The position numbers and the translations under genes are program-made. Source: Massilia sp. CF038 (GTDB lineage: Bacteria; Pseudomonadota; Gammaproteobacteria; Burkholderiales; Burkholderiaceae_D). From it: a stretch of 64,000 nt of DNA. Positions 16,199 to 50,472 of this stretch are shown in pieces (position 1 is the first letter of the stretch; each line of letters opens with the position of its first letter). Below the pieces are notes generated by a model, which saw nothing but the letters and a program-made list of their open reading frames with translations, was not told the DNA's origin and made no database searches. The DNA lies in the NCBI RefSeq assembly GCF_900129765.1, contig NZ_FQWU01000001.1:1674001-1738000 (forward strand), written 5' to 3'.

Positions 16199-16234
16199 CC
16201 AGAAATCCATCAGGAGTAGTTCAGCAATGCGTCT
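16199..16234 (+). promoter_or_regulatory. Translation-start region duplicated at 23306
   Basis: These 36 bases around the start codon match 23306-23341 at 32 positions, including the ribosome site within TCAGGAGTAGT and the first codons ATGCGTCT. Confidence 0.7.
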
Positions 16235-19200
16235 CATGCAGCCTTTCCGTGGCGCCGTCCGAGTCACGGTTCAAAATCTTTTGTGGATGCTGCGCGCGCT
16301 GCGCTGCGCGCTGTTGCTGGTGTTGTGCGCGCCGGCGCTGGCACATGGCGCATTGCCACTGCCGCAATTTTTGGTGGTTGATTACCATCCGATTTCGAAA
16401 ACGCAAGTCAAGGGCAGTCCCCCCGGGGCGCCGCTGTTTGACTATGTGTACCGGGTCGACGTGCGCAATGCTGGCGCCGCCGCCGCGGACGTCAGCGGGC
16501 GCCTCGCCAGTCGCGTCAACAGCGTGACCATCGTGGATCGCGAGGCCAGTTTCGGCCTGGTAGAGCCGCACCGGATCAAGGCCAGCAGTGATACCATCAC
16601 CGTGCGCGCGCGCAAGTTCTTTGACCGCCGCCTCGACCCAAGGCGCCCGCATGGCGCCGCCTGGCGCTATGAGGAAGAGGGCAGCGATGATGATGACATC
16701 CGGGTTCCCGGTCTTGGTCGCGGGCAGCAAGAGTGGCGCAGCGAAGCATTGCGCAACTTCTACGACATTAAATTCCAGTTCTTGTTCCAGTGGGCGTTCA
16801 CGGTGCGCGCCGATCAGGCTGCGCCTGTCATCAGCCAGCCGCTGCCGCAAGGCGCGCTCAACACGGCACGCCCACAGCTGAGCGCACAGTTCAGCGACGG
16901 CGCCTCTGGCGTGGACGTGAGCAAGATCGTGCTCGCGCTGGATGGCGTGGACGTGAGCGCCAGCGCCAGAAAGAGCGCCGCCGGCGTCAGCTACACGCCA
17001 GCGGCCAATCTGGCCGAAGGGAACCACGCGGTGGCCCTGAGCGTGGCCGACAAGGCCAATAATCGCGGCGCGGCGGCCTGGAGCTTCATGGTCGACACCA
17101 TCGCGCCAGTGGTGACGGGCCAAGCCCCCAACAATGTGACCAACGCCAGTCCTGCGGCGCAGATCAGTGCCCAGTTCACCGATCAGGGTGCTGGCATCGA
17201 CACGGCCAAGGTCCGGCTGTGGGTCGACAATGTGGACGTGACCGTACTGGCGCAAGTGAGCGCCGGCGCGATTGTTTATCTGCCTGCTAAAAAACTTGCT
17301 GACGGCAAGCACAAGGTCAAGCTGACCGTGCCCGACAGCGCCACCAACCTGGCTACGGTCGAGTGGAGTTTCGGTGTGGACAGCAAGGGCGTGAGCATCG
17401 ACAACCGTCTGCCGGCCGACGGCGCGCAATTCGACGCCCTGGCCATTCCCGTTATTAGCGCCACGTATGGCGGCGCCGCCAACAGCGTCGACACCGGCAA
17501 GACCGTGTTGTTGCTCGATGGCCGCAACGTGACCGCGCAAGCCGTGCAAACTGCCGCTGGCATCCGCTATGTCCCAGCCGGCGCCCTCAGCGAAGGCGTG
17601 CACGAGGTCAAACTGCGCGTGACCGACAAGCGTGCCAATCTGTCTGAAGCGGCTTGGACATTCACCACCGTGAGCGCCCCGGAGATCACCAGTGTCAGCC
17701 CGAAAGACGTGGTCTTGAACGCAGCCACTGCTGTCGTGATCGCCGCGCAATACCGCGACATCGGGGCAGGGATTGACACCGGCGCGGTGCGCTTGCTGCT
17801 CGACGGGGTCGACGTGACCGCCGCAGCCCAAATCGGCGCGACGGAATTACGCATGACACCGGCCAGCCCGCTGCCGCAAGGGGCCCATGTGCTGACGCTG
17901 ACGGTCGGCGACAAGGCCGGCAACCGCAGTACCAGTAGCTGGCGCTTCACGCTCGACACAGGCCTGCCGGTGATTAGCGCGCAAAGCCCGCGCGACGTGC
18001 TGGTGGCCAGTAGCGCGCCCACCATCAGCGCCAGTTTCCAGGAAACGGGCGATGCGGCCAGCAGCACCGGGATCGACCCGGCGCGCGTCAAGTTGTTCAT
18101 TGACAATCAGGATGTCACGGCCCAGGCCCGGATCAGTGCGAGCGCGATTGTGTATACGCCTGCCACGGCGCTGGCCAGCGGGACCCGGACGGTCCAGCTG
18201 GTGGTTGCCGACCGCGCCGGCAACACGGTTGACAGTGTGTGGAGTTTCACGGTGGACTTGGACCGCCCGACCATCGGCAATGCGGCCACCCCGGCTGACG
18301 CCAGTGTGCTCGAGGCCGACGCACTGCCCGTCATCAGCGCCCAGTTTTCGGACGGTGGTTACGGCATCGACCCGGACCGCGTCTCGCTCGAACTCGATGG
18401 CGTCAATATCAGTGCACAGGCGCTGCGTAGCGCCACCTCTGTCAGTTACACGGTGCCTGCCGCTCTCTCCGAAGGCAACCACCAGATCAAGCTCACGGTC
18501 GCCGACCGTGGCGGCAATACGGCTGTGCGCAGCTGGAGTTTTGTCACGCGCACGGCGCCGCGCATTTTTGATGCCTGGCCGGTGGAATCGGCATTTATTG
18601 GCGCGGTCTCCGGCTTGGGCGCCAGCTACAGCGATATCGGCAGCGGCATTGATCCTGCTTCGTTCCGCTTGCTGCTCGACGGCGCCGACCTGACGGCGCA
18701 AATGGTGCATGAGGAAAATACCTTCAGCGTGCCCATCACGCAGGCGCTGGCCGATGGCAACCACCAGGCCACGCTCGAGCTGAGCGACCTGGCAGGCAAC
18801 AAGACCCGCCAGTCGTGGAGCTTCCTGACGGCAACGCCACCTGTGATCAGTGCGCGTTCGCCCGTTGATGTGACACTGGCGCCGGACAGCCGGCCCGAGA
18901 TTTCCGCCGCCTACACTGCCGGTGGCCAGGGGCTGAACCTGGCCAGTGTGCAACTGTATGTTGATGAGGTCGACGTTACCGCGCAGGCCCAGGTCAGCGC
19001 CAGCGGCATTCGCTACACGCCGCCGGCGGCCATGGCTGCCGGCGAGCATACGGTCATGCTGTCTGTGCAAGACAACGGCAACGGCCGCGCCGGCGCTGTC
19101 TGGGGTTTTAGCGTGGCGGCGGCGCCGACGTATGCGGTGGCCATCAAGCAGCCACTGAACGGCAGCACGTCGGCCACGCGCCGGGTCGAAGTCGTGGCAC

Positions 19201-22200
19201 GCGCCAACTCGTCCGCCACACTGGTGGACACCCTCACGCTCAACGGCCAGACCATGCGCGCTGACGTCATCGACGATGGGGATGCGTCCACTGTGCAATA
19301 TGTGGCGACGACTGAGCTGGTCGATGGCAGCAATACCTTGACCGTGTTGGCCAGCTTCCGCGACGGCAGCACGCGCAACAGCAGCGCCACGGTCAGCTAT
19401 CGCGCACCACCGGTCATCACGATTCTCACGCCGGCCGACAAAGCGACACTGGGCGCGGTCAACCCCAACAGTCCGCGCGACTTGACGGGCAAGGTCGAAC
19501 GGCCCGTGCTGATTACCGGCCGCACCGACAAGCCAGTGCAAAGCGTGACGATCAACCAGCAGGCTGCGCTGGTCGCGCCTGGCGGCATGGAATTTCGCTT
19601 CGAAAATTTCTTCCTGCACGAAGGGGTCAATTTGCTCTCGGCCATTGCGCTCGATGCGTTTGGCCAGAGCGCCAGTGCCAGCGTCACGGTCGCGGTGGAT
19701 CAAACTGCACCCTTGCTGTCGGTGGAAGCGCCGCTGGCTGATGCCTTCACCTCCAACGACCGGGCTGATGTGCGCGGCGTGGTCAATGATGCGATCGAAG
19801 GCTGGATTGGCGCGCCTTACCCGTCCGTCACCGTGACCAATAGCGCCAACCAGAAGCGTGTCACGGCCAAAGTGATGGACCGCTTCTTCAGTGCCGAAGA
19901 CGTGCCGCTGGAAGTGGGCGCGAACAGCTTGCGCGTGAGCGCCACCGACCAGGTGGGCAACACGCGCAGCAAGGACGTCACGATTACGCGCATTGCCAGC
20001 GGTTCCAAGCGACTCACGATTTTGCGCGGCAATCATCAGCGTGCCCCGGTCGATGCTGAACTGCCGCAGCCGCTGACGATCGTGGCGCTGGCCAATGACG
20101 GCAATCCACTGGTGGGCATGGCGGTGCGTTTCGACATCTTGCGCGGTACCGGCACTTTGCGCGCTGGCACGGTCAAACAGGCGCGGAACATTCTGCTCCA
20201 GACCGACGCTGCCGGGCGTGCCGAAGTGTGGCTCACGCTGGGCAAGCAGTCTGGCGAAGCCGGCAATATGGTGCGCGTGTCAAGCGTCGGAGTAGGGGAG
20301 GATGCGTTGTTCAGCCTGACCGCCGAACGGGGAGCGCCCGCGCTGATCCGCGCCGATGGCGGCGGCGCGCAGTTTGGCGAAACCGGCAGCACCGCCTTCG
20401 AACCGTTGGGCGCGGTAGTCAGTGACGCCAACGAAAACCGGGTGCCGCAAGCGCCGGTGACGTTTACCGTCGTTGACGGCGATGCAGTGCTGCTTGACGC
20501 TCAGGGCACGCGCCACGCCAGCCTGACCGTCACGACCGACAAGAATGGCCTGGCCGCAGTGCGCCCCTTGTTTGGTACCCGGCCTGGTCCAGTTCTGGTG
20601 AGCGCCACCTTGCCCAACCAGGCAGGGCGCATTGGTGCTTTGTTCCAGCTGACTGTGCTTGCCGCACAGACCGGCCCGACCCAGTTGTCGGGCAAGGTCC
20701 TCAATCACACGGGGCAGCCCTTGGGCGGGGTGCGCATGTCGATTGGGCGTACCAGCCTGAGTACGACCACGGACGCGAACGGCGACTTCCATTTTGACAG
20801 CCAGGTCCCGGTTGGCAAGGTCGACTTGTTCATCGATGGCCGCACGGCCAACGTCCAGACTGCCCAATATCCGTCGCTGCATTTCGAGATGTTGGCCATT
20901 CGTGGCCAGAATAATGTGCTGCCGCACCCGATTTTCCTCCCGCCTTTGCTGATGAGTTCGGCAAAGACCGTGGGCGGCGCGCAAGACGTGACGATGACAA
21001 TACCTGGTTTTGACGGCTTCGAGATGGTCGTCAAGGCGAACAGCGTTACCTTCCCGAATGGCGACAAGACGGGCAAGCTGGTGATCAGCCCGGTGCAGCA
21101 GGATAAACTGCCGATGGTGCCGCCAGGCGGCTACAACGGCTTCATGGCGCCGGCCTGGACCATCCAGCCGAGCGGCACCCGCTTTGACCCGCCGCTACAA
21201 ATCAAGATGCCCAACAGTCTGCTGCTGAAGGCCGGCGAAACGCGCGAAATATACCAGTGGGACCATGACCTGGCGACTTTCGTGCCGATTGGCCGCGCCA
21301 CCGTCAGCGAAGATGGCGCGCAGTTGATCAGCGATAGCAACAGCGGCGTCACCAAGGCTGGCTGGGGCGGCACCCCTTCGCCACCGCCGGTGCCGGACAA
21401 GTGCGCTGTGCAAAAAGAGCCCGATCCCAAGAAATGCGAAGAAACCGTGGTGGTGGCTGGCTGTCCCGTCACCAAGACCTATGATCCAGGGATCAACAAG
21501 AAGCCGTTTACCTTTGTCGGCGACGATCTGCTCGAACTGGAGCCCAAGCTGGTGACGCTGCTGGCACGCAAGAGCAAGAAAATCAGCTTGACCGCATCGA
21601 TAGAAAAGGGCGATCCGGCCGGCATCAAGTGGGAAATCACCAGTAATACGGCCAAAGCAAAGGGCGCCAAGAACATCGCACCTGATAACAAGGAAGGCGC
21701 TGAGCTCAGCTTTGAAGTGGACAATGTGGCCAATAAAACCGGCAGCTACGAGCGCAGTGTCGCGGTCGACCTGACGGCAAAGGCGACCATGTGCGGGGTA
21801 TCGCAGACGGTCCGCCTGCAGCAGGATCAGAAAGACATTATCCGGCAAGAGTATGTTGACTTTAAGCAAGAAGAGGTGATGCACACCAAAGACTCGCCGA
21901 CCAGGGCGTTTTCCGTCAACGCGCCAGCGCGCGACAAGTTCAACGAAAAGGGCACGTACAGCCCCGCAGAAGGCCTGAACAATCCTTACAGTATCTCGCT
22001 GGGCAAGCCCTTTGAACTGGCAAGCCGGATTGCCGGCTTCTATCAAACGCTGGTAAAAGCGAAGTCGACAGCAGCCTACACCAAAGACATGGTGAACGCG
22101 ACGCCGCAGAAGCGCGCCGAGTTGGAACTAAAGATTCAGCAAGTGGCAGCCGGCACTTTTATGCCGATACTGAACTCGGTCTGGCGCAGTCCACGCCACA

Positions 22201-22451
22201 ACTACATCGTTGGCGGCGCGGCGGGCAGCAACCATTTAATGGGCGCGGCGGCGGACATGAAACCGGGCACCTTGCCGGCCAACCTTAAACCGGTCGACGG
22301 TTGGTGTGCCTTGCGGGAAGGCGCGGGTTCGACGGGCGCATCGGAAGTGTTGCTCGAGACAAACAAGGTGGGCGGCGGCGTCGACCACACGGACCATTCT
22401 TGCACCGGGAATTATTCATTCAACCATGTCCACACGGGAGATCCACAATGA
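16227..22451 (+). CDS. Giant secreted Ig-like repeat protein with M15-type peptidase domain
   Basis: A 2074-residue exported protein. The signal peptide spans about residues 1-38 (basic start, LLLVLCAPALAHG end). Eight Ig-like repeats of about 96 residues follow (about 195-966), each with an xGxGIDxxxVxLxLDGVDVTA core and a closing WSFxVD. Then come more Ig-like and Big1-like domains (about 967-1480), a carboxypeptidase-regulatory domain (about 1490-1560), a region like that preceding Rhs/YD-repeat proteins (motif QWDHDLATFVPIG), a Pro-rich linker, an unassigned part, and a C-terminal M15-type domain. The last has VWRSPRHN, His2003 and Asp2010 in SNHLMGAAAD, and His2067/His2069 in NHVHTG, so a complete zinc site is likely. 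It is the first gene of a six-gene operon. Peptidoglycan cleavage is inferred. Confidence 0.85.
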   Translation: MRLMQPFRGAVRVTVQNLLWMLRALRCALLLVLCAPALAHGALPLPQFLVVDYHPISKTQVKGSPPGAPLFDYVYRVDVRNAGAAAADVSGRLASRVNSVTIVDREASFGLVEPHRIKASSDTITVRARKFFDRRLDPRRPHGAAWRYEEEGSDDDDIRVPGLGRGQQEWRSEALRNFYDIKFQFLFQWAFTVRADQAAPVISQPLPQGALNTARPQLSAQFSDGASGVDVSKIVLALDGVDVSASARKSAAGVSYTPAANLAEGNHAVALSVADKANNRGAAAWSFMVDTIAPVVTGQAPNNVTNASPAAQISAQFTDQGAGIDTAKVRLWVDNVDVTVLAQVSAGAIVYLPAKKLADGKHKVKLTVPDSATNLATVEWSFGVDSKGVSIDNRLPADGAQFDALAIPVISATYGGAANSVDTGKTVLLLDGRNVTAQAVQTAAGIRYVPAGALSEGVHEVKLRVTDKRANLSEAAWTFTTVSAPEITSVSPKDVVLNAATAVVIAAQYRDIGAGIDTGAVRLLLDGVDVTAAAQIGATELRMTPASPLPQGAHVLTLTVGDKAGNRSTSSWRFTLDTGLPVISAQSPRDVLVASSAPTISASFQETGDAASSTGIDPARVKLFIDNQDVTAQARISASAIVYTPATALASGTRTVQLVVADRAGNTVDSVWSFTVDLDRPTIGNAATPADASVLEADALPVISAQFSDGGYGIDPDRVSLELDGVNISAQALRSATSVSYTVPAALSEGNHQIKLTVADRGGNTAVRSWSFVTRTAPRIFDAWPVESAFIGAVSGLGASYSDIGSGIDPASFRLLLDGADLTAQMVHEENTFSVPITQALADGNHQATLELSDLAGNKTRQSWSFLTATPPVISARSPVDVTLAPDSRPEISAAYTAGGQGLNLASVQLYVDEVDVTAQAQVSASGIRYTPPAAMAAGEHTVMLSVQDNGNGRAGAVWGFSVAAAPTYAVAIKQPLNGSTSATRRVEVVARANSSATLVDTLTLNGQTMRADVIDDGDASTVQYVATTELVDGSNTLTVLASFRDGSTRNSSATVSYRAPPVITILTPADKATLGAVNPNSPRDLTGKVERPVLITGRTDKPVQSVTINQQAALVAPGGMEFRFENFFLHEGVNLLSAIALDAFGQSASASVTVAVDQTAPLLSVEAPLADAFTSNDRADVRGVVNDAIEGWIGAPYPSVTVTNSANQKRVTAKVMDRFFSAEDVPLEVGANSLRVSATDQVGNTRSKDVTITRIASGSKRLTILRGNHQRAPVDAELPQPLTIVALANDGNPLVGMAVRFDILRGTGTLRAGTVKQARNILLQTDAAGRAEVWLTLGKQSGEAGNMVRVSSVGVGEDALFSLTAERGAPALIRADGGGAQFGETGSTAFEPLGAVVSDANENRVPQAPVTFTVVDGDAVLLDAQGTRHASLTVTTDKNGLAAVRPLFGTRPGPVLVSATLPNQAGRIGALFQLTVLAAQTGPTQLSGKVLNHTGQPLGGVRMSIGRTSLSTTTDANGDFHFDSQVPVGKVDLFIDGRTANVQTAQYPSLHFEMLAIRGQNNVLPHPIFLPPLLMSSAKTVGGAQDVTMTIPGFDGFEMVVKANSVTFPNGDKTGKLVISPVQQDKLPMVPPGGYNGFMAPAWTIQPSGTRFDPPLQIKMPNSLLLKAGETREIYQWDHDLATFVPIGRATVSEDGAQLISDSNSGVTKAGWGGTPSPPPVPDKCAVQKEPDPKKCEETVVVAGCPVTKTYDPGINKKPFTFVGDDLLELEPKLVTLLARKSKKISLTASIEKGDPAGIKWEITSNTAKAKGAKNIAPDNKEGAELSFEVDNVANKTGSYERSVAVDLTAKATMCGVSQTVRLQQDQKDIIRQEYVDFKQEEVMHTKDSPTRAFSVNAPARDKFNEKGTYSPAEGLNNPYSISLGKPFELASRIAGFYQTLVKAKSTAAYTKDMVNATPQKRAELELKIQQVAAGTFMPILNSVWRSPRHNYIVGGAAGSNHLMGAAADMKPGTLPANLKPVDGWCALREGAGSTGASEVLLETNKVGGGVDHTDHSCTGNYSFNHVHTGDPQ

Positions 22452-23242
22452 TGAAACGCGCAATTGCTGTGGTGGCCCTGCTGGCAGCAGGCGCTGCCCA
22501 TGGCGCGCCACCCACGCCTGCTGCCCAGTTGCGCAGCCTGCAAGGGGAGTACGCGGCGCAAGCCGACGGCGGCATCAAGTCGGTCAAGGCGATCGACGCC
22601 TTGCTGACCCAGTTGGATCAGCTGCCGCTGCAGCAAGTCGCCCCGGCGGTGCGGCGCGGCGCGCTGGTGCTGCGCGTTGAACTGCTGCTGCACAAATACA
22701 GCCTGCTTGAAAGTCCCGATTTTGCCAACAACAAGGGTGGCGTGGCAGTACTGCAGAGCGCGCGCGCGCTGTGCCAGCAATGGCTGGATACCCATCCAGC
22801 CGATCTCGATGTGCTTGGCCAGCTGTACAACATCCAGGTCAGCTTGCGCGTCCCGGTACGCGCAACGATTGACAAAATGCTCGCCGCTGACCCCAACAAC
22901 AGTTTTGCGCGCGAACTGTCGTCGATCAACTACGACCAAGAAGACAAGCTGGCCCTGGCCATGCAAGAAATTTTGCGCGCGACCAGCGGGGAGAAAGTGC
23001 CGTCGCGCACCGTCGACCATATGCAAACCGGGATCAGTTACGCCCGGCGCGCAGAGTGCCGCTTTGCCGATGCCTTGCAAGCGATTGTCGACGCCTTGCC
23101 GCCTGAAGCGGTAGCCACGGCAGCAGAACCGGTGGCGCGCAAAGGCGCGCCCGAAGCGCCCTGGCTGGCCGCGCTGACGCAAGCAAAAACGCGCTACCTC
23201 AAGACGTACGACGTCGACCAATGCCTGGCAACTAAAAAATAA
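22448..23242 (+). CDS. Exported helical-repeat protein of giant-protein operon
   Basis: A 264-residue protein starting at ATG 22448, overlapping the stop of the giant gene by four bases (ATGA), with GGGAG upstream. It has a clear signal peptide (MMKRAIAVVALLAAGAAHGA, cleavage after about residue 20). The mature part is all-helical with TPR/SEL1-like periodicity, for example LDTHPADLDVLGQLYNIQV and ARRAECRFADALQAIVDAL, but no canonical TPR consensus. Two Cys are present in the mature protein. It is probably a periplasmic partner of the giant proteins, perhaps in their export, assembly or anchoring. I do not recognise a named family. The next gene follows after 91 bp. Confidence 0.75.
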   Translation: MMKRAIAVVALLAAGAAHGAPPTPAAQLRSLQGEYAAQADGGIKSVKAIDALLTQLDQLPLQQVAPAVRRGALVLRVELLLHKYSLLESPDFANNKGGVAVLQSARALCQQWLDTHPADLDVLGQLYNIQVSLRVPVRATIDKMLAADPNNSFARELSSINYDQEDKLALAMQEILRATSGEKVPSRTVDHMQTGISYARRAECRFADALQAIVDALPPEAVATAAEPVARKGAPEAPWLAALTQAKTRYLKTYDVDQCLATKK

Positions 23243-23305
23243 ACAGCACGATCCGCCCTGGGCGTCGCCTTGACCGGCAGCGCCCCGTTCTTTGCGTGTG
23301 TCATA

Positions 23306-23341
23306 CCAGAATTACCTCAGGAGTAGTACAGCAATGCGTCT
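23306..23341 (+). promoter_or_regulatory. Translation-start region, second copy
   Basis: This is the counterpart of 16199-16234, with ribosome site TCAGGAGTAGT at 23317-23327 and start codon at 23334. The two regions differ at only four of 36 positions, and the first residues (MRL-x-QPF) are shared. Confidence 0.7.
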
Positions 23342-29300: not shown

Positions 29301-32300
29301 CACGGCCAACGTGGCGCGCCCACGGCGCCAGACCTGGTCGCGCTCACGCCGCTTGACGCGCACAGCAGCACGCTTGAACAGCGCTGGAGCAATCTGACGG
29401 TGCCGCCTGGCGGCAAGTTGGCGCTGATGCACTTCGTGGTGCAGCAAGTCCACCGTGCCGGCGCAATTGCCTCTGCCGAACGCCTGCAGCAACTGCCGCC
29501 GGAAGCGCTGGACGGCTTGCTGCCGTCGGAGCTGGCGGCGCTGGTCAACTTCCGTGCCCCGCAGGGGGGCATCAGTGCCCTCGCTTCACTGCCGAGCCTG
29601 ACAACCAGTCTGAGCGGGCGTGTGTTCGAAGGCGATGGCGTCACGCCGGTCAACGGCGTGCGCGTTGCGTTCCAGAGCGCGCACCCGCTGTTTAACCGTT
29701 TGTGGGGCCTGCGGCGCGACGATTTCTGCGATGCGCCCGGTACCACGGTGGCCGGCATGTTGTCGGCTCAGCGGCCCAATATCGATCCAGCCAAGGTGGT
29801 GGAAGGTGCGTTCGCGGTGCAAGGTGTGCTCAACGACAGCGCGTCCATTGCGCTGCCGGCCGACACGGCCGTGCGTTTGCTGGCCCAGCCTGCGTTGGGC
29901 TGCTTTGGACAGTACAGCGGGCACGTACTGACCGGTCTGCCGTCACGCGAACTGGTGCTGGCGCCGTCAGCTGCCCATGTGGCCGATGTCATCTTTGATT
30001 CCGGCATTCTGACCGGCGCTGTCAGCGGCCCGGCCGACCTGAACGCAACTGGCGGTCGCGTCTGGCGCGCCAGCGACGACCCGGATGCCCCAGGTGCGGT
30101 GTATGTCCGCATTGGCGCCGATGGCAACTATGTGTTCCCGGGCATGGCCCCGGGCCGCTACGACATGATGACCGATGTGCCGCATGCCCAGGGCACGCGC
30201 GTGCGCGGCCAACGCCTCGATGCCGCGGTGACGCTGGCACGGACCACGGTCACGGACATCCAGCTGCAAGCGAGCGGCGCCCTGGCGGGCACGGTACTCA
30301 CGGCCAACGGTGAAGCAAGCGTCAATGCCTTGGTGGAATTGCGCGGTGCAGCCGAAGGGCAGCAGTTCGACGCCTGCCTCGGCTGCGTCGGCGCGGCCCC
30401 TGCGAATGTGGGTCGACGCGCGGTGCAGCGCAGCACGCGCACCGATTCCTTGGGGCGTTACAGTTTCCACGCGGTGCCGGCAGGTGCCTATGTGATCAAG
30501 GCCATCGATCCGGTTTCGCGTGCGATGGTCGAGCTGCCGGTGGATGTGAGCGCGAGCCAGAACGTGGTGCGCAATCTGACTTTGCTGGCATTGGGTACGG
30601 TGCAGTTGACGGTCAGTCATGTTGACGGCCGCCCCAGTGCCGACACGGCCGTGTATCTGCAGTCCGACGCGGAAGCGTCCGAGCGGGTCGCAGGGCGCAC
30701 CGCCGGCGGCAAGCTGACGGTGGCCAATGTGCCCGAGGGCGGCTATCGCCTGCGCGTGGTCGATCCGCGCTTTGCCGGCAGCGCGTATGAGCGTCAATTG
30801 CGTGGCACCATTGATTTCGGTGGCCAAGTGAGTGCGCAAACCATCACGCTTGGCGCTGTGGCCAGCGTGAAGCTGCAGGTCCAGGATGGCGACAACGCAG
30901 GACGCGCCGTGGCGGGCGCCAACGTGCGCTGGAACAGCCAGCAGGCCGGTGTCACTGCCGAGGATGGCAGTTTCACACTCCATGGCATCCAGGCTGGCAC
31001 CTATACCGTCGGCGCGCGCCATATTTTTGAAGGCACGGCCCTGGGCACGGATGTGGCACTGGTGGTGCGCGACGCCGATGATGGCAAGAGCGTGACGGAA
31101 ACGCTGGTTCTGGCGCGTGCCGTAGGCAGCGTGCGGGTCGTGGCGCGCGATGGCGATCATGCCGATGCACCTTTGGCCGGTAGCAAGATTTACCTGCAGA
31201 TGGGCAGCGGCCAGAAGCGCCTGATGGGTGAAACCGATGCCAGTGGCGCGCTGACGGTGCCGGGCGTGCTGCCAGGCGCGTATCGCGTCACCGTGCTCGC
31301 CATGCTCGACGGCGCGCCGGAACAATTGCTGCTCGATGGCGTGGTCAAGCCGGACAACATCGGTACCACGGCTGAGCTGAGCGCGCGTTTCCAGCGCTCT
31401 GTCGTGAAACAGAAGTCGTTCGCCTATGTTGAAGAGCGTCATCTGTATTCGGTGCCGGTGACCATTGGCGATGTCTTGACGGTGCAGACCAAAGGCGCTG
31501 CCGTGATCGGCGCACCGGCCAGCCGTGCCGTCGGGGTGATCGTGTTTGATCCCGACCACAACAGCAAAGCGTCTGGTGTCGGTTATGGTCCTCAGCGCAA
31601 TTTTGAGCAAGTCAATTACCAGGGCGACCTGAAAGCGGTGCGTGCCACCATGAGCGGGTATTACACTGTAGCACTGGCTCCCGACGGCAATCAGACGGGC
31701 AGTCTGGGCGGCTACGAATTGGCTGCCAGCGTCAATGGCGTGCCCGTGGCGCCGCAGCCTTACCACGACGGCGCGCTTGTCCAGGGTAAGCTCACGCGCG
31801 CCGACGGCGTGACGCTAGTGCCGGATACGCGCTTGCGCCTGGCCCGCTACGAGGTGCCTGAGTTGAACGTTGAAACCGTCACGGACGGTGAAGGCCGTTA
31901 CAGCTTTGCCAATGTGCCGGTGGGAACTTACCGCGTCAACGCCTTCGCTGGCGGCAGTTGGGACAATTCCACCTTGGGCGCGGTCGCCGTGGCCGGGCAA
32001 GACGTGAGCACCGATGCCAAGCTGATGGCAGCGACGGTGCTGCGCGTGACCGTGAGCAACGGCGGCACGCCCGCGCCGCAGGCCGTCCTGCAGGTCGCCT
32101 ACTATGGGCAGAAAAAAACCATCACCACCGACAGCAACGGCAAGGCCACCCTGGACATCGCCAGCGAGACGCCGGTGTCGATCTACGCAGAAAGTGCCGG
32201 CAACCGGATGATCCGCTCGGCCACCGAGACTGTGCCGGTCAACGATGGCGCCGTGCTGGACGTGAACTTGACGCTGGCCTCGGCCTCGCTCAGTGGCCAG

Positions 32301-34574
32301 GTGCGCTCGGTGACCGGCCAGCCGCTGGGAAGCCATCTTGTCCGGCTTAATCTGCCGACGGACGGGCGCTATGATTATCTGGCGGCCGCCTTCTCGGATG
32401 CGGAAGGCAATTTCAGTTTTGCAGAGGTGCCGGCCGGCCAGCTTTTGCAGCTCTCGGCCAGCAGTTACTACCAGTACGATGCGCCCACGACCACCATCAG
32501 CCTGACGCCGCAAGCGGGGCAGACGCTGAACGGCCTGGTGCTCACCATGGCAGGCCAGGGGCGTATTGGGGGCCGCCTTCTGCTGCCCGGCGCGCTGCCG
32601 GCGGCAGGGCAGACCATTGTGGCCAGCTGGACCAACCGCATCCACCCGGATGCGCCGAACTCGGTCTCGGGCCTCACCGATGCCAGCGGCAACTATCTGC
32701 TGACCAGGGTCCCCAGCGGGATACCGGTCACGCTCGATGCCTATTATGCTGCCGATAGCGACCCGAAACCGCATGTCAGTACCACCGTGACCGTGCAAAA
32801 CGGCCAGCTGCTCACTGTTGCGCCGATGACCTTCGATCTTGGCACGGTCGTGCTGGCCCGCTTGAACGCGCTGGATGATTCCACCCGCTATTTCGGCGAT
32901 TGCAACTTTACCGTCCATGCAGGCGGACTGAGCCGGTCGGCCAGCGGCGCTTGCAGCGACACCCGGATGTTTGCGGGCTTGCCGCCCGGCCCGGCCCAGG
33001 TGGAGATCTCGCCTTGGGACAAGCCGAGCTATGGCACGCTGAACGTGACGCTGCCGACCAGCGGTACGGTCGATGCAGCCATTCCCGTGCTCACCGTCCG
33101 CGGTCAGCTGCGCTATCCGGACCGTAGCGCGCCGGCGTCGGCACAGATGTACTTGATTGACGTGGCCGGGGTCATGATCAGCCCGAGTGCGCTCGAGCAA
33201 GATGGCAGCTTTGTCTTCCACGGTGTGCGCAGCGGCGCCTTCACCCTCACGGCGCAGGATGAGTACGGTCTGACCGCCAGCGTGCAGGGCACGCCGGGTG
33301 CGGCCGATCTGCTGTTCCAGTCCGATGTCGAGTTGCCGCCATCGGGCACGGTCAGCGGCATCGTCCGCGGCGCGGACGGGGCACCGCTGGCTGATGCCGG
33401 TGTGTTCGTGCGCAACGTCGATGGGGCATTGGAGCGCTACGTGTACACCGATGCCCAGGGACAGTACAGCATCGACCATGTGGCGCTTGGCATGGTGGTG
33501 GCCTCGGCCAGCGACCCGGTCAGCGCCATACCGGCCAGCGCACGGGGCGCGCTGCAAAGTGCGGCCATCCCCTTGCTGCTGGACTTGCAGTTGCCGCGCG
33601 GGGGGACCCTGTCGGGCACGGTGTTGGGCACGGGCGGGGCGCGTGTCGGCCAGAATGTGCGGGTGGAAGTGACGCTGGCCGAGGTCGGCGCTGCGTATGC
33701 GGGCTACCGCGGCGAGGCCGTGACGGACAGCGCAGGCAATTTCCTGCTGTCGAACGTGCCGCCAGGTTTGGTCCGCGTGTTGGCCGGCAGGTTCGGCCCG
33801 GCACTTGGGGTCGCGATGGCGGAGGTGGCCCCGGCTGCCAGTACCGTCACCACCGTGCGCCTGGGCAGCGAACGCTTGCTGCCCCTGGCGCTGGGGGGGC
33901 TCGATACCTACGAGTATGAGCTCAGCCAGGTGGGATCGCTCGGCGCCCGCGAGCAGGGGCAAGGCTTGCGCTATGACGATTACTATGGCCTGGTGGTCAA
34001 TGGGATGCCGTTCGGCACGCTGGACACGGCACGGGTGCTGCGCGCCGATCGCGAAATCGAGATTGGACCGCGTCTCATCGAAGGCTTGTCGGTGACGCGC
34101 CGCTTCTTCGTGCCCGTCAATGGCGGCTACGTGCGCATCGTCGACAGTTTCACCAATCCGGGACCGGTCAGCATTGCATTGAACGCGCGCCTGCGTGGCG
34201 GGGTGCAGTTCGGCGAAGGACCGCTGCGCACTGCAGCGCTGGCGCGTGCCCCCGGTTACGTGATCTATTCGGCGCCGAATTACTATGAAACGCCGCGCGA
34301 CAGCGTGACCACGGTATTCAATGGCGCCGGCGGATTGGCGCCGGCAGTACAGCAGTTCAAGCTGGACGACGCGAGCTTCAGCTATGGCTGGAACCTCAAC
34401 GTTGCGCCTGGCAAGACCGTCCGTTTGATGCATTTCAGCGCCCTGGCGCTGTCGGCGCCGTTGACGCGGGCCAGCGCCAAGGCGCAAGCCTTGGTATCGG
34501 GCACGCAGGAACAGATGCTTGAGGGCTTGTCGCCTGCTGACAAGGCAACGATTCTTAACTTTATTCTTCCCTGA
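23334..34574 (+). CDS. Giant secreted carboxypeptidase-regulatory repeat protein
   Basis: A 3746-residue exported protein, one of the largest genes expected in such a genome. The signal peptide is about residues 1-38 (LLCLFLLLATTALPSWAGA). The rest is mainly tandem carboxypeptidase-regulatory/CnaB-like beta-sandwich repeats of 80-100 residues. The repeating core is SGTVxxADGxPVAGVxVxL, then TDxxGxYxFxxVPxGxYxVxA. Interspersed are three copies of a different module (about 1107-1383, 1825-2090 and 3514-3746). Each module has VTRRxYVP, YLE-x-DN, an LMHF or LVHF strand and an end near LxPEAL-x-GL-x(6)-NF-x-P; the third forms the C-terminus. No transmembrane anchor, LPXTG or autotransporter domain is visible. 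Start ATG 23334 was chosen for its strong ribosome site, shared with gene 16227. Likely a fibrous surface or matrix protein. Confidence 0.85.
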   Translation: MRLFQPFPARVLAHVCHRAHALLCLFLLLATTALPSWAGAPPAPGATCTISALNRNAPIAPDGSFTIFNIPGTAGPFRARASCSDGSVGQTAVAFPDFDATVVYTGEIFWGQLDPTPVALGLSANAKHLSTGQTAQLKATAIAENAATRDVSARADGTTYTISNDLLASVSVDGQVQVLPLFASGSSARVVATATNEGGVAGSYMFVLGPRGALAGQVTRADGTTPVAQAQVTVIRHQPMEQVGTAVTDDSGRYALADVSAGTFTISAIDPRSGDRAQVGASIDAEGQTQRADIRMNGQGQVRVTVLDATDQPVAGVTVTLTALGAIRETHSMLTGPDGTAAFATVAAGDFTVSARDPVSRLVGSTIGLLAGGAVLPVSLKLQPVGTITGTVLAADGATVQEGVQVRILSRERGIVSQSVTGTDGKFSFNSLPLGDGPYTLDAFVDNRLRTRLPGVVLSSPNQVLVQDLRFTPVGSVSGTVTDADSKPFASVTLTLQSLAGSRLAFTASAGPDGAFLFQGVPIGPYTLSASTQDGRNGNVSGNLPADGATVVSAVQLAASGLVGTVFERDGVTPAGAGVKVFLMRNPQPQQLALTLDASTAGVSAVASTNALGQFSFAIASGATYVLQAQDGSNRARTQVVVTEIVSGKPLTVNLRYLGKGSVSGVVRNAAAVVQANAPVRVASVGAFSASWDTVTDSAGRYQLPNVYVGDIAVTAQNPLSKLGGLAQGRLIAEGDALTLDVTLAATGTVQGSVQTAAGLAARAPLQVELLSGSTPYATQRVDSGNAFTFTLVPVGELSVRVTELASGDRGVAISQLSAANEVRTVPVRLVGQGAVRVTVRDSAAKPVAGAKVVISSGSPFGGEFTLATGADGSVLAAPVFNGDVSVQASKPAQVGTIAGSVQGTVVNGATLDLAVTLTTRPLGSIRGTVYGPDGITPRPDMEVSLVAGFAVTYSTVTNKDGQYSFSNVEGGTAYTARVRKVSVGSAPQDRIRAQFVGLQINDQDEVLTRDFQMIGSGNVSGTVTKADGSTLAGIKVALSNPDPVYGARPGSNSGTYETTTDGNGRYALLDMAAGNFTLRATDPSGNAGLRAEGLGRIRFDGDAPVIDLTLVDGAVAMPYTLYDANGFTFDVRGDGAVANGRHGAFRGLGNESGGMRLELLVNGVPVPFRNGDGSIGKLSDGAQQLEVDEDHGSGLHVTRRIYVPRDAYFARYLEVLENRTAQALTVGVRLVSHHGSGDSNARIVDTSDGDNVLASGAFGDRWLVVDDQRDADPFETASVPATGHLFDGVGGLPASAARYELLGQTGKFSVQWDNITLQPGQSRALVHFAFHQLDRFRAREAALRLAQLPPEALAGLRADERTAIANFQVPADGVSTLAALPDVTSASVSGRVLSGDGTTPVPGAVVHFKSKQVLFGRDWQVTSGAGGKFALQAKIDGSAMPLPLPRYGFDLSAAHPMTAAPSSASVVEFPQGPASVVQDLIFNGTANLRGTITRANGALAPGASVRLRLPQSTQYLYATDAGADASYLLTGVPPRDYVVDAVMAHPQAAQGGVGIVGTATATAFAGETTVASVVLEKVGTISGRVTAADGKPVVGAALQLTADGITLRRTASDTGGYYRFSDARVGSLQVSAYDEVSRAGGDAAVSVAAEQESVANISLKGFGTIAVQVNFARGAPAPAALVKIDVRADVLTDTSGRVSYSVPVGTYRIRARHPDNRYDENLETSIDVTLDENGAVLPVTLVLPPAASIHGTIKRPDGSTLAAGFPYNVKLLNGSFNQTRAGRTDAAGNFRIGALALGTQLVTAFDPELNRFADAELVLASDGEEGVLDLTVAENRIALPAAMQDANRFGFPIQNDGSVQDNGSNFSRAAQLTVNGQPYTGATSAALELGKRQFAVVQASPMAGLQVSRKVYVPRGGYFARYLEIFDNPGSSPVTIQAALRTTYGDAALLASSSAQAAPSASDDWLVFDDAQDGDPLLNQSPAATAHIHGQRGAPTAPDLVALTPLDAHSSTLEQRWSNLTVPPGGKLALMHFVVQQVHRAGAIASAERLQQLPPEALDGLLPSELAALVNFRAPQGGISALASLPSLTTSLSGRVFEGDGVTPVNGVRVAFQSAHPLFNRLWGLRRDDFCDAPGTTVAGMLSAQRPNIDPAKVVEGAFAVQGVLNDSASIALPADTAVRLLAQPALGCFGQYSGHVLTGLPSRELVLAPSAAHVADVIFDSGILTGAVSGPADLNATGGRVWRASDDPDAPGAVYVRIGADGNYVFPGMAPGRYDMMTDVPHAQGTRVRGQRLDAAVTLARTTVTDIQLQASGALAGTVLTANGEASVNALVELRGAAEGQQFDACLGCVGAAPANVGRRAVQRSTRTDSLGRYSFHAVPAGAYVIKAIDPVSRAMVELPVDVSASQNVVRNLTLLALGTVQLTVSHVDGRPSADTAVYLQSDAEASERVAGRTAGGKLTVANVPEGGYRLRVVDPRFAGSAYERQLRGTIDFGGQVSAQTITLGAVASVKLQVQDGDNAGRAVAGANVRWNSQQAGVTAEDGSFTLHGIQAGTYTVGARHIFEGTALGTDVALVVRDADDGKSVTETLVLARAVGSVRVVARDGDHADAPLAGSKIYLQMGSGQKRLMGETDASGALTVPGVLPGAYRVTVLAMLDGAPEQLLLDGVVKPDNIGTTAELSARFQRSVVKQKSFAYVEERHLYSVPVTIGDVLTVQTKGAAVIGAPASRAVGVIVFDPDHNSKASGVGYGPQRNFEQVNYQGDLKAVRATMSGYYTVALAPDGNQTGSLGGYELAASVNGVPVAPQPYHDGALVQGKLTRADGVTLVPDTRLRLARYEVPELNVETVTDGEGRYSFANVPVGTYRVNAFAGGSWDNSTLGAVAVAGQDVSTDAKLMAATVLRVTVSNGGTPAPQAVLQVAYYGQKKTITTDSNGKATLDIASETPVSIYAESAGNRMIRSATETVPVNDGAVLDVNLTLASASLSGQVRSVTGQPLGSHLVRLNLPTDGRYDYLAAAFSDAEGNFSFAEVPAGQLLQLSASSYYQYDAPTTTISLTPQAGQTLNGLVLTMAGQGRIGGRLLLPGALPAAGQTIVASWTNRIHPDAPNSVSGLTDASGNYLLTRVPSGIPVTLDAYYAADSDPKPHVSTTVTVQNGQLLTVAPMTFDLGTVVLARLNALDDSTRYFGDCNFTVHAGGLSRSASGACSDTRMFAGLPPGPAQVEISPWDKPSYGTLNVTLPTSGTVDAAIPVLTVRGQLRYPDRSAPASAQMYLIDVAGVMISPSALEQDGSFVFHGVRSGAFTLTAQDEYGLTASVQGTPGAADLLFQSDVELPPSGTVSGIVRGADGAPLADAGVFVRNVDGALERYVYTDAQGQYSIDHVALGMVVASASDPVSAIPASARGALQSAAIPLLLDLQLPRGGTLSGTVLGTGGARVGQNVRVEVTLAEVGAAYAGYRGEAVTDSAGNFLLSNVPPGLVRVLAGRFGPALGVAMAEVAPAASTVTTVRLGSERLLPLALGGLDTYEYELSQVGSLGAREQGQGLRYDDYYGLVVNGMPFGTLDTARVLRADREIEIGPRLIEGLSVTRRFFVPVNGGYVRIVDSFTNPGPVSIALNARLRGGVQFGEGPLRTAALARAPGYVIYSAPNYYETPRDSVTTVFNGAGGLAPAVQQFKLDDASFSYGWNLNVAPGKTVRLMHFSALALSAPLTRASAKAQALVSGTQEQMLEGLSPADKATILNFILP

Positions 34575-34577
34575 TCC

Positions 34578-35093
34578 ATGATCCTGATTTCCAAAGTGAT
34601 GCGTGTGCGGTGCGCCGTGCTGGTCTTGGGGGCGGCGTGCGCGCTGTCCGCCCGCGCCGAAGCGCGCCTGTTGCCCGAAGTAATGCTCGTTGACCAGGCA
34701 GGTCTGGCCACATCAACCCGCACCTTGCCCCCTGGCGGGCGCTGGGCGCTGATCGTGGTCGAAGCGGGACAACCAAGCGCGCAAGCGCTGCTGGCCAGCC
34801 TGGCCAGGCGGCAGGGCGGCTGGACTGGCAAACTGGTGATTGTGGTCGCCGGCGCCGCGCCACAGGCCCAGCGCCTGGTGCAGCAGCATGCCGCGCTGGA
34901 CGGCGTGACCTGGTTGTTCGATCGCGAACGGAACTTGCCAGCCGCACTGGCGCTGCGCGCGACGCCGGCCGTGCACGCCATCACGGACAATGGCGAGATC
35001 GGCTGGCATGTGCTGGGTATGCCGGCGCACGCCAATCTGCCGGCCATGCTGTCCCAATGGCTGGGGACCCAGCCGATGGCGCGTGTACGATGA
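34578..35093 (+). CDS. Exported thioredoxin-fold-like protein, no CxxC
   Basis: A 171-residue protein whose start is 3 bp after the giant gene. The N-terminus has a signal peptide (MRVRCAVLVLGAACALSARAEA, using ATG 34599; ATG 34578 adds seven residues). The mature part has a thioredoxin-like order: a strand RWALIVVEAG, helix, strand GKLVIVVAG, helix, strand GVTWLFDRE, then LRATPAVHAITDNGEI, where ATPAV provides the cis-proline, and IGWHVLGM. The redox CxxC is absent, so it would be a non-catalytic or binding version. Its stop overlaps the ankyrin gene start. Family assignment is by fold pattern only. Confidence 0.65.
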   Translation: MILISKVMRVRCAVLVLGAACALSARAEARLLPEVMLVDQAGLATSTRTLPPGGRWALIVVEAGQPSAQALLASLARRQGGWTGKLVIVVAGAAPQAQRLVQQHAALDGVTWLFDRERNLPAALALRATPAVHAITDNGEIGWHVLGMPAHANLPAMLSQWLGTQPMARVR

Positions 35094-35707
35094 TGGCGGA
35101 CCCTTGGCCTTGCGGCTTGGCCCGTGCCGCGCTGCTGGTGTGCCTGTCGCTCGCTGGGGGCATGGTGCTGGCCCAGGACGCCCCCGATGCCAGGCGGCGC
35201 CTGGAGTTGATGGGTGTGCAGCCGAGCGCTGCTCGGCTGGTGCAGTTTGCTGCCCAGGGCGACCGTACCGTGGTCGAGCTGCTGTTGCGCAGTGGCGTGG
35301 ACGTGAATGCGGCCGAGCCGCTGCGCCAGGTACGCGCACTGCACAATGCGGCAGCGCAGGGGCGTTTGCAACTTGTCAAGAACCTCCTGGCCCGCGGCGC
35401 CCAGATCGATGCGCGCGACTGGCGTGGCAACACAGCGCTGATCCTGGCCGCCTACGGTGGACATGCGGTCGTGGTCGATACATTGGTGGCGCACGGCGCC
35501 AGTCTGGCAGCCGTCAGCGAGGAGGGGATTTCCGTGTTGAATGCCGCGCTCTACAGTGGTGAAGATGCGCTGGCACTGCGCCTGCTGGCAGCAGGCGCCC
35601 GTCCCAGCGTCCATCCGGTTGCCGGTGCCACCATCGACATCGCGCGGCGCGCCGGACGCCAGGCCGTGGTGCAAGCGCTGGCCGGCCTGACGGGGGAAGC
35701 GCCATGA
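35090..35707 (+). CDS. Exported ankyrin-repeat protein
   Basis: A 205-residue protein starting at ATG 35090, overlapping the previous stop by four bases. Its N-terminal signal peptide has a hydrophobic stretch AALLVCLSLAGGMVLAQ, so the ankyrin domain should be periplasmic or extracellular. About four ankyrin repeats follow (residues about 55-185), for example VVELLLRSGVDVNAAEP, ALHNAAAQGRLQLVKNLL, NTALILAAYGGHAVVVDTLV. Ankyrin repeats bind proteins; small periplasmic ankyrin proteins often sit beside catalases, peroxidases or haloperoxidases. Here the next gene, also joined by ATGA, is a vanadium-haloperoxidase-like enzyme, so it may be the partner or stabiliser of that enzyme. Confidence 0.85.
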   Translation: MMADPWPCGLARAALLVCLSLAGGMVLAQDAPDARRRLELMGVQPSAARLVQFAAQGDRTVVELLLRSGVDVNAAEPLRQVRALHNAAAQGRLQLVKNLLARGAQIDARDWRGNTALILAAYGGHAVVVDTLVAHGASLAAVSEEGISVLNAALYSGEDALALRLLAAGARPSVHPVAGATIDIARRAGRQAVVQALAGLTGEAP

Positions 35708-36996
35708 CGCTCGCGCGCTACCTGCGCGCAGGAACGCGCATGCTTGTCGTGCTGGCGGTCTGGGCGGCGCATTCGGCAAGCGCGGCGCCGATTCTGTCTT
35801 ACGCCGCCGAACCCACGCCAGCTGCCGCCTATGACCCGGCCGTGTTTGGCACCAGCGACGCAGCCGAAGCGCAGGCCGCGCTGATGGCCCGGTCCTGGCC
35901 CGCGCAGCCGGCCAGCATGGCCTGGACCGCGCTCACGCTCAAGATGATCGTCAAGCACAAGATCGCGCCAACCCGGGCCGCGCGGGGCAGTGCGCTGGTC
36001 CATGTTGCCATGCATGATGCCTGGGCATTGGCCGATGCCGATGTGCTGGCGCGCCAGATTGCCGTCTCGACCGCGGCAGCGCATGTGCTGGCGTTCTGGA
36101 TGCCCAGCGAAGAGCACGGATTCGACCGGATTGTCGGCGCGCTGGCCCGGCGTGCGGCAGCGACCGGCCAGGCCGACCCGGCCACGCTGGCGCGCGCGCT
36201 GCAAGTCGGTGCCCATGTCGCGCAGCGCGTCATTGCGCGAGCCCAGGCTGACGGTGCCGAACGGGGCTGGAACGGCTTGCGGCTGGAGTGGTATGGTGAT
36301 GGGCGCTACTACGGTCCTGGTGCCTGGGAGCCGACAGCGCCGTATTTCTATTATCCGCCTGATGAACCATTCGCGCCGGCGTGGCAAACCTGGGTATTGC
36401 GCACGCCTGGCCAATTCCGGCCGACACCGCCGGCGTTTGGCTCCGCCCGTTTCCTGGCCGATTTGCATGAGGTGGTCGCGCTGCAAAAAAACCTGACAGC
36501 CGAACAGCTAACCATCGCCAAATTCTGGGTCGACGGGAGCGGCAGCGTCACGCCACCGGGACACTGGAACCAGATCGCGCTTGACCTTGCTCAAGAACAT
36601 CATCTGGGCGAGGAAGACACGGTGCGCCTGTTCGCCATGCTCAATATGGCACTGGCCGATACCTTTATTGCGGTATGGGACGTGAAATACCATTATTGGA
36701 CAGCACGCCCGATCACCACGGCCAAGACGGTTCTGGGGATTAACTTGAAAACGGCGATCCTGACGCCCCCATTTCCTTCTTACGTTTCCGGCCATGCCGC
36801 GTTCAGCGGCGCGTCAGCGCGGATTCTTGCCAGCTTCTTCCCGGAACAGGCGGCGCGGCTCGATGCGCTGGCGGCCCAGGCCGCAACTTCGCGCCTGTAT
36901 GGGGGGATTCATTATCGACACGACAATGAAGATGGCTTGCTGCTCGGCCGGGCGATTGGCGAAGTGGTGTTGCGCACCATGCGCAAGGCGCCTTGA
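35704..36996 (+). CDS. Exported vanadium-dependent haloperoxidase-like (PAP2) protein
   Basis: A 430-residue exported protein (signal peptide about 1-28, ending HSASAA). The C-terminal half has the vanadate/phosphate-binding site of the PAP2/haloperoxidase superfamily: Lys328 and Arg335 in KYHYWTARP, Ser362-Gly-His364 in SYVSGHAAFSG, and Arg397 and His403 in RLYGGIHYRHD. The Lys-Arg spacing (7), the Ser-x-His motif and the Arg-His spacing (6) equal those of fungal vanadium chloroperoxidase. Haloperoxidase and acid phosphatase activity cannot be told apart from these residues; length and the long helical N-terminal part favour the haloperoxidase-like group. It is the last gene of the giant-protein operon, joined to the ankyrin gene by ATGA. 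Confidence 0.85.
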   Translation: MTLARYLRAGTRMLVVLAVWAAHSASAAPILSYAAEPTPAAAYDPAVFGTSDAAEAQAALMARSWPAQPASMAWTALTLKMIVKHKIAPTRAARGSALVHVAMHDAWALADADVLARQIAVSTAAAHVLAFWMPSEEHGFDRIVGALARRAAATGQADPATLARALQVGAHVAQRVIARAQADGAERGWNGLRLEWYGDGRYYGPGAWEPTAPYFYYPPDEPFAPAWQTWVLRTPGQFRPTPPAFGSARFLADLHEVVALQKNLTAEQLTIAKFWVDGSGSVTPPGHWNQIALDLAQEHHLGEEDTVRLFAMLNMALADTFIAVWDVKYHYWTARPITTAKTVLGINLKTAILTPPFPSYVSGHAAFSGASARILASFFPEQAARLDALAAQAATSRLYGGIHYRHDNEDGLLLGRAIGEVVLRTMRKAP

Positions 36997-37054
36997 TCGG
37001 TATAGCGCACTGAAAAAGTTGATGGGGATCGGCGTTTTAGGCCACAATTGCTCC

Positions 37055-49734: not shown

Positions 49735-50472
49735 ATGGTCGAGCAGAGTGAGCTGTTGACGCTGTTGAAGAGCGACGGCGTAAGCGGGTGGCAGGCAGCC
49801 TTGTTCAAGCTCGCCCGCAGCCAGGGGTTCGACCAGGTCCTGTATGGGGCGGTGGGGTCGCGCAATGCCAAGCTGGAAAGTGCTTTTTTGCACAGCAATT
49901 ACTCGGCAACCTGGCGCGCGCGCTACGATGCCGACAAGCTGCATTACGTCGATCCGACGGTCTCGCATTGCCTGACCAGCTCGCTGCCGATCGTGTGGGA
50001 GCCGGAAGCGTTCAGCGAACCGGCCCAGCAGGCGCTGTATGAAGAAGCATGCGGCCACGGCATCCGCTCCGGGATTACCTTTCCGATCCATGGACCCAGC
50101 GGCGAATTCGGGGTGGTCAGCTTTGCCTCGGACGAAAAGCCCAGCGAAGAGTTCGACGAGACGATTGCGCACCTGATGCCGTCACTGTCGCTGATTCGCG
50201 ACTATGCGTTTGAATCATCGCTACGCTACATCAACCAGCGCCAGGAAGGGGAAGCACCGCCGCGCCTGACGCGGCGCGAGCTCGAGGTGCTGAACTGGGT
50301 GATGGTGGGGAAATCATCCTGGGAAATTTCCCGCATCACCGCTTGCTCGGAAGCCACTGTGAATTTTCACATTGGCAATATCCGGCAAAAATTTAATGTC
50401 AATACGCGCCAGCAGGCCTTGGTCAAGGCCATCAGCATGGGCATTCTTACCCCGGAAGATCACCATCGCTAA
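49735..50472 (+). CDS. LuxR-family acyl-homoserine-lactone receptor
   Basis: A 245-residue transcription factor with an N-terminal autoinducer-binding domain and a C-terminal GerE-type helix-turn-helix (LTRRELEVLNWVMVGKSSWE to the end). Ligand-pocket residues typical of functional receptors are present: Trp60, Tyr64, Asp73, Pro74, Trp88 and Gly113, the counterparts of TraR Trp57, Tyr61, Asp70, Pro71, Trp85 and Gly113. It should therefore bind an acyl-homoserine lactone. A GGGGGGAAG ribosome site precedes the ATG. Downstream are the convergent rsaL-like gene (26 bp 3' overlap) and luxI, so this is a cognate receptor and not a solo. Confidence 0.95.
   Translation: MVEQSELLTLLKSDGVSGWQAALFKLARSQGFDQVLYGAVGSRNAKLESAFLHSNYSATWRARYDADKLHYVDPTVSHCLTSSLPIVWEPEAFSEPAQQALYEEACGHGIRSGITFPIHGPSGEFGVVSFASDEKPSEEFDETIAHLMPSLSLIRDYAFESSLRYINQRQEGEAPPRLTRRELEVLNWVMVGKSSWEISRITACSEATVNFHIGNIRQKFNVNTRQQALVKAISMGILTPEDHHR

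Follow-up and report, generated by a model that had tools for sequence, protein, structure and literature searches.

A conserved operon of two giant exported proteins with an exchangeable tip in Massilia sp. CF038, a candidate polymorphic effector system closed by a vanadium-haloperoxidase-like enzyme

In a 64,000-nucleotide stretch of Massilia sp. CF038 (contig NZ_FQWU01000001.1, positions 1,674,001 to 1,738,000; the whole stretch is called the window), six plus-strand genes at 16227..36996 encode two giant proteins, three smaller proteins and a vanadium-haloperoxidase-like enzyme (VHPO). Comparison with related loci establishes, at the level of sequence, a fixed gene set, the exchange of the C-terminal tip of the first giant and the homology of its trunk. 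We give a probability of about 0.6 to the reading that the operon encodes a Sec-exported polymorphic effector system without an RHS/YD shell, in which the gene behind the tip is an immunity-like partner, the second giant is a scaffold and the closing enzyme carries out peroxide chemistry. The initial annotation had found no nameable system to match; the build-up resembles polymorphic toxin systems, with which it shares a conserved N-terminal part, tips exchanged between strains and a downstream gene that varies with the tip. This last likeness is strict in one form of the operon (type B, closed by a di-haem peroxidase-like protein) and not in the other (type A, closed by the VHPO), to which the window belongs.

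Conservation and distribution of the gene set

Both giants, together with the VHPO, the ankyrin protein and the small exported protein, are present at all 13 complete type-A loci, which come from beta- and gammaproteobacteria (the window, G031, G283, G371, G423, G361, G129, L042, L087, L088, L089, L090 and L091; the handles are ours). The six genes had been proposed to form one system in which the giants stay with the other four; synteny bears this out for five of the six genes, at 13 of 13 loci, and not for gene 2, which is replaced by other genes. The window's gene order is found at 12 of the 13 loci, while L042 has giant 1 after the VHPO and shows only the last 1519 residues of giant 2. Loci with two handles were counted once (L039/G129, L040/G361, L041/G423, L047/G031, L038/L091, L043/L087, L044/L088, L045/L089 and L052/L090). 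Not among the 13 are G025, whose operon is divided between contigs, the fragments L051 and G210/L053, L046 and L048, and L049/L050, which lie at contig ends and apparently come from the same metagenome-assembled genome as G025. L046 is a second giant-1 copy without giant 2 in the 9.2 kb downstream, and L048 has a broken giant 2, a VHPO and no called ankyrin gene.

The distribution of the operon is patchy. At least 9 of 392 family genomes contain the VHPO (E <= 1e-30) and at least 9 of 392 the giant-1 trunk module (E <= 1e-100), with 8 common to both sets; five of the nine positive genomes are from one genus and are hence not independent events. The genome-search counts are lower bounds, as G017 is unlisted though its giant matches the module locally (E 6e-23). 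G210 holds only a trunk fragment. No second copy of the system was found in the window's genome at E <= 1e-15. Some form of the module occurs at E <= 1e-15 in at least 11 of 369 class-sample genomes, including the window's, and a contig scan returned 15 loci titled Oxalobacteraceae, Methyloversatilis, Roseateles, Rhodanobacteraceae and other metagenome-assembled genomes; the VHPO is present in 7 of the 8 genomes searched from among these. It is scarcely probable that the genes are co-transcribed exported proteins with unrelated tasks: the set is kept at 13 of 13 complete loci across distant hosts, as against 0 of 16 other genomes of the window's genus with either the VHPO (E <= 1e-30) or the trunk module (E <= 1e-100).

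Giant 1 and the exchange of its tip

Giant 1 (2074 aa, 16227..22451) has a Sec-type N-terminus, immunoglobulin (Ig)-like repeats, a transthyretin-like plus weakly ZU5-like module, a Cys-containing linker and an M15 peptidase-like C-terminus. A signal sequence (read by eye) and an Ig-like stalk (Big_13 and others) make up the trunk at 16227..20666, followed by the conserved module at 20667..21371, in which the transthyretin-like domain (about residues 5-94 of the module) precedes the weakly ZU5-like one. The linker, where homology to relatives stops, spans 21372..21506, and the swappable domain, resembling M15 D-Ala-D-Ala carboxypeptidases, spans 21507..22448; we placed the boundary between them at residue 1760. 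Profile searches matched the Ig repeats, one CarboxypepD_reg (transthyretin-like) domain, which sits after the Ig-like domains, and a C-terminal Peptidase_M15_3. Where most of its length aligned, the 700-residue end of the trunk shares 47-55% identity with other type-A giants.

The module of giant 1 is homologous to the module that precedes the RHS repeats, or shell, in RHS giants. A family search found no RHS_repeat match in giant 1, with the search covering the YD/RHS part only and FN-plug and NHL not searched as such; the RHS giants of G086 and G116 match RHS_repeat at E 1e-44 and 2e-64. Judged by these profiles, the giant-1 trunk has no RHS shell. In structural comparisons, the transthyretin-like fold proved to be a common one (its Z-score tied with carboxypeptidase D), the best 50 matches cover essentially this domain, with no ZU5 structure among them, which counts neither for nor against ZU5, and the Pfam teneurin TTR model matches at E 0.19 only. 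Pfam ZU5 matches 4 of 15 module members (best E 0.0016), and the window's module falls under the cut-off (E 0.12). The second domain has three weak solved-structure matches (E 0.28-1.4), all of which we take to be ankyrins aligned in their ZU5 region.

The homologous module, and the presence of RHS genes near VHPO genes in G086 and G116 (by family search; in G031 and G017 by eye only), would also fit a decayed RHS/teneurin-like toxin locus, whose trunk is a remnant after loss of the YD shell and whose other genes were kept by chance. We consider such decay very unlikely. The shell-less form has kept long open frames at 13 complete loci, the neighbouring genes are 27-94% identical over the aligned part (7 type-A loci compared), and the decayed copies L048, L051 and L053 look different.

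The tip, the last ~315 residues of giant 1, scores 31.5 bits against PF08291 (cut-off 23.2) when the C-terminus is scanned alone. It carries HxxGxAxD at residues 2003-2010 and HxH at residues 2067-2069; H2003 and D2010 align with the His and Asp ligand motif of the Zn D-Ala-D-Ala carboxypeptidase M15 structure 1lbu, and the HxH was read by eye as the third zinc ligand. The match to 1lbu is weak (E 0.03) and, unlike 1lbu, the domain here ends a giant exported protein. Of the built-in cell-wall cutting suggested by the initial annotation, the M15-like tip holds for this strain, with no M15 tip seen at the other loci; the type-A locus of Pseudoduganella violaceinigra DSM 15887, for one, has a different tip. 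The G+C content at third codon positions (GC3) is 0.71 in the tip and 0.73 in the partner gene, compared to 0.78-0.81 in the trunk.

We found that giant-1 homology between relatives stops just past the motif KAGW, within the Cys-containing linker, and that the tip and the following gene are, in most comparisons, replaced together while both flanks are conserved. The trunks of L054 and L056, for example, are 86% identical over 700 residues, and only the initial 43 residues of their C-termini can be aligned. Tips and partners were compared pairwise in seven type-B loci (all complete ones but L062) and in seven of the 13 type-A loci, giving 21 pairs for each type. Of the type-B pairs, 19 have neither tip nor partner in common and two have both in common; the sequence on both flanks is conserved. 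Among the type-A pairs, tips match past the linker in two (G283/G423 and G031/L087); the G283/G423 partners match as well and G031 has no called partner. In these alignments, tip and partner always change or stay together in type B (21 of 21 pairs), and less strictly so in type A. One tip/partner pair is shared by G283, G371, G361 and G423, another by L055 and L060, and another by L058 and L059. The two Methyloversatilis loci L087 and L088 have 95% identical trunks, 87% identical giant 2 and 84% identical VHPO, and their tips show no match past the linker at E <= 1e-3; with the linker included, they are 35% identical over 212 residues, and the tips may be distant relatives. The comparison of C-termini to which the L054/L056 example belongs left out L049, L050, L053, L061, L070, L071, G086 and G017.

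Tips and partners were also clustered into families over 24 loci. The partner family is common to both members in 23 of 28 pairs with the same tip family and is not in 178 of 248 pairs whose tip families differ. A value of 23 was reached in 1 of 2000 shuffles, with the relatedness between loci not removed. The clustering was by single linkage, which merges L054, L056 and L062 via their long shared linker, and G031 and L062, with no partner called, were left out. In L042, an HExxH-bearing tip is followed by five small genes related to each other (L042:11758-16107), two of them short.

Of the genes following giant 1, 36 were listed, and a hydrophobic N-terminal segment is present in 29; some of the remaining seven may have late called starts. 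Because the partners look exported, the tip would act outside the cytoplasm. In the window, the gene directly behind the tip (gene 2, 264 aa, 22448..23242), a candidate immunity gene, appears by eye to be exported and has no family match; its earlier description as a helical-repeat protein found no Pfam or NCBIfam match beyond chance level. Gene 2 was rejected as a member of the conserved set, as unrelated genes occupy its place in relatives, and it has no similarity to the short partner in L067.

The second giant, the closing enzymes and the operon's surroundings

Giant 2 (3746 aa, 23334..34574) has a conserved N-terminal region (SALNRN) and 20 CarboxypepD_reg stretches. Three copies of an unnamed ~240-aa domain, each terminating in NFxxP, lie at 26685..27446, at 28851..29564 and, at the extreme C-terminus, at 33864..34571; the best Pfam match of the third is at chance level (E 0.26). 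Gene 4 (34578..35093, 171 aa), a small exported protein kept in type A, has no Pfam or NCBIfam match beyond chance level that would make it thioredoxin-like, as had been suggested; the accompanying remark that it lacks CxxC is correct, and 0 of 12 relatives have one. A DsbA-like gene with CxxC separates the gene of the small protein from that of the ankyrin protein at 7 of the 13 type-A loci (G283, G371, G423, G361, G129, L042 and L091) and is absent from the window, G031 and L087-L090 loci. Family searches uphold the proposed identities of the exported ankyrin-repeat protein (gene 5, 35090..35707) and of gene 6 (35704..36996), which belongs to the PAP2/VHPO family.

Gene 6 retains the vanadate-site residues K, R, S-G-H, R and H (in K-x6-RP, SGH and RxxxGxH), a pattern shared with class A acid phosphatases. 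Its nearest solved structure is 4cit (E 4e-24), which we take to be the Zobellia iodoperoxidase, and acid phosphatases are farther away (best E 1e-6). The gene 6 product is haloperoxidase-like by its sequence, and acid phosphatases match too. It shares the PAP2 family and the vanadate-site residues with vanadium-dependent haloperoxidases (4cit and the fungal chloroperoxidase 1idq) and differs from them in sitting within a giant-protein operon. In G017 (L034), the VHPO domain forms part of an Ig/transthyretin-like giant of 4349 aa whose module is divergent (G017:C1:1892200-1905249); RHS/YD-type genes, recognised by eye, lie close by. The G086 locus L018 (1292-12994) has, in the same direction, an RHS giant, an RHS fragment, two unknown genes and a VHPO, which thus stands beside a shelled relative. 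The window's genome has two distant VHPO-like matches (G000:C2:1280935 and C3:354552; 37-38% over parts). Directly behind the VHPO of L023 is a phytase-like esterase gene (PF13449; G283:C1:3681781-3683808), and a gene of equal length (675 aa) follows the VHPO in G371, G361 and G423.

Type B comprises eight complete loci (L054-L060 and L062) and a broken ninth, L061. Its genes run in the order small gene, giant 1, variable gene (L062 has no called one), giant-2 relative of ~1200 residues and di-haem peroxidase-like gene. The closing gene encodes ~520-560 residues and matches PF06537 in L054, with the other seven 73-87% identical to that of L054. Both giants and the di-haem peroxidase-like end are retained at 8 of 8 loci, and the last three type-A genes and the DsbA-like gene have no match at any of the eight. 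This unrelated di-haem enzyme is the main reason to tie peroxide chemistry to the system, and the argument is one by parallel only. In other forms, the giants of L067 are separated by a DsbA-like gene, with a rotamase-like gene behind giant 2, and in L066:1239-6418 (minus strand, G678) the giants are followed by Kelch-type and FG-GAP/ASPIC-UnbV/HEAT proteins instead of the peroxidase.

The small gene before giant 1, scanned at nine loci of both types, gives PEP-CTERM-type matches at E < 0.01 in L043, L044, L054, L057, L058, G129 and L038; the TIGR02595 cut-off is exceeded in L057, L058, G129 and L038, L061 matches weakly and L045 does not match. Exosortase was found in 13 of 15 genomes searched, including the window's. 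These PEP-CTERM-type genes in relatives speak for a surface role. They favor an alternative, akin to the matrix or fibre assembly of the initial annotation, in which the two giants form a surface matrix or adhesion fibre that is oxidatively cross-linked, the tips vary with the niche and the small gene is a tip-specific folding helper. The matrix is further favored by the peroxide-type enzyme at the end of both operon types, by NTF2-like partners common to different tips, and by the DsbA-like genes of type A and the DsbA-like and rotamase-like genes of L067, which suggest that periplasmic folding matters. Nevertheless, the co-exchange of tip and partner in all type-B pairs, the row of five partner genes and the peptidase-type tips fit a conflict better, and the window has a rhodanese-like gene rather than a PEP-CTERM gene directly upstream of giant 1. 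We regard the matrix as unlikely, though worth keeping in mind.

Within the window, the six same-direction open reading frames were recovered where the initial annotation had placed them. ATGA overlaps occur at 22448, 35090 and 35704, three junctions and not the "four of five" first counted; as reported, the gene at 34578 begins 3 bp past the preceding stop codon, and the longest gap is the 91 bp at 23243-23333, before 23334. No terminator-like site was found in this gap, and terminators and promoters across the scanned region 22300-37200 occur at chance level. A simple codon-usage caller recovered all six genes, giving the last a later start (35740); signal peptides were read by eye from the N-termini. 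A 25-bp start region is common to giant 1 (16210..16234) and giant 2 (23317..23341), both on the plus strand, and its first 22 bases (<=2 mismatches) occur at these 2 sites only in the 5.66-Mb genome. The gene that follows the operon, at 37055, encodes an FAD-dependent oxidoreductase whose C-terminus is of the alpha-glycerophosphate-oxidase type. About 13 kb downstream of the operon lie a LuxR-type autoinducer-binding regulator (49735-50472) and a LuxI-type autoinducer synthase (50920-51447), both on the plus strand.

A proposed mechanism and its relation to known systems

As a polymorphic effector system, the operon could work as follows. Giant 1, presumably exported by Sec, would display its tip at or beyond the cell surface, where the M15-type tip would cut peptide stems in a neighbor's cell wall. 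The partner (264 aa, encoded at 22448-23242), apparently exported, would bind and block the tip in the producer's periplasm. Giant 2 may be a co-exported scaffold, and the VHPO may carry out a peroxide-dependent step on or near the giants, such as cross-linking, halogenation or hypohalite production.

Several observations count against this reading. A homologue of gene 2 was found in 0 of 119 relatives and 0 of 368 others (a class sample overlapping the first), and its pairing with an M15 tip is seen only once. Three of the 21 type-A pairs share a partner (26-29%) without a tip match (G129/L087, G129/L088 and L087/L088), and the partner of these three loci is of the NTF2-like kind. Five of the 28 same-tip pairs share no partner family, and 70 of the 248 different-tip pairs share one, of the same NTF2-like kind, which in those loci could be a chaperone. 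Scans of 10 C-terminal domains gave no matches above the Pfam cut-offs other than M15, DUF6973 and a PKD domain in L067. The low GC3 of tip and partner proves little, as the conserved VHPO gene is equally low (0.73). The operon has no dedicated delivery machine, and L066 and L067 are without a closing peroxide-type enzyme in the stretches read.

A type II secretion system (T2SS) cluster is unsupported as a dedicated partner in the window: the secretin homologue (58% to that of G031) is on another contig. A secretin of the G031 type is present at E <= 1e-20 in 13 of 15 genomes, and pseudopilin/ATPase-like genes adjoin the G031, L052 and G116 loci (by eye).

Bacterial teneurin-like proteins, in the excerpts of PMC13018210, likewise combine Ig-like N-terminal domains, a transthyretin-like domain and a variable C-terminus with an immunity gene directly downstream and a patchy distribution. 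Giant 1, in contrast, has no RHS/YD match and hence no shell, and its fixed operon adds a second giant and a peroxide-chemistry enzyme, neither mentioned in those excerpts; the word haloperoxidase is absent from PMC13018210. Sec/T2SS-type polymorphic toxins share a signal peptide, a long repetitive trunk and exchanged tips that include peptidases, and the same text reports NTF2- and HEAT-type partners and ZU5 in RHS toxins (PMC3482391, in part). The present loci differ, so far as the text portion of PMC3482391 goes, in their two-giant operon with a VHPO or di-haem enzyme and in their exported-looking partners (29 of 36); that portion contains none of the terms "peptidase m15", "vany" and "d-ala-d-ala". 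We found no description of the operon in open-licence PubMed Central full texts. The same source gave a single, unrelated match for VHPO with RHS proteins and, for PEP-CTERM with polymorphic toxins, one match, known from an excerpt, and no description.

More tentatively, the loci may represent a distinct delivery class, in which a two-giant surface scaffold presents interchangeable effectors without an RHS/YD shell and a peroxide-dependent bond or modification made by the closing enzyme is needed to assemble or fire it. The VHPO of type A and the di-haem peroxidase-like protein of type B would then be convergent closing enzymes. We hold this proposal as a whole to be less likely than not.

According to the excerpts of PMC13018210, the shelled teneurin-like toxins are without an evident delivery machinery. 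The present operon, fixed around a homologous trunk module, names candidate partners, the second giant and the peroxide enzyme, and indicates that the trunk module and the RHS shell are usable apart. If the proposed system is real, bacterial vanadium haloperoxidases would gain a role beyond metabolite halogenation.

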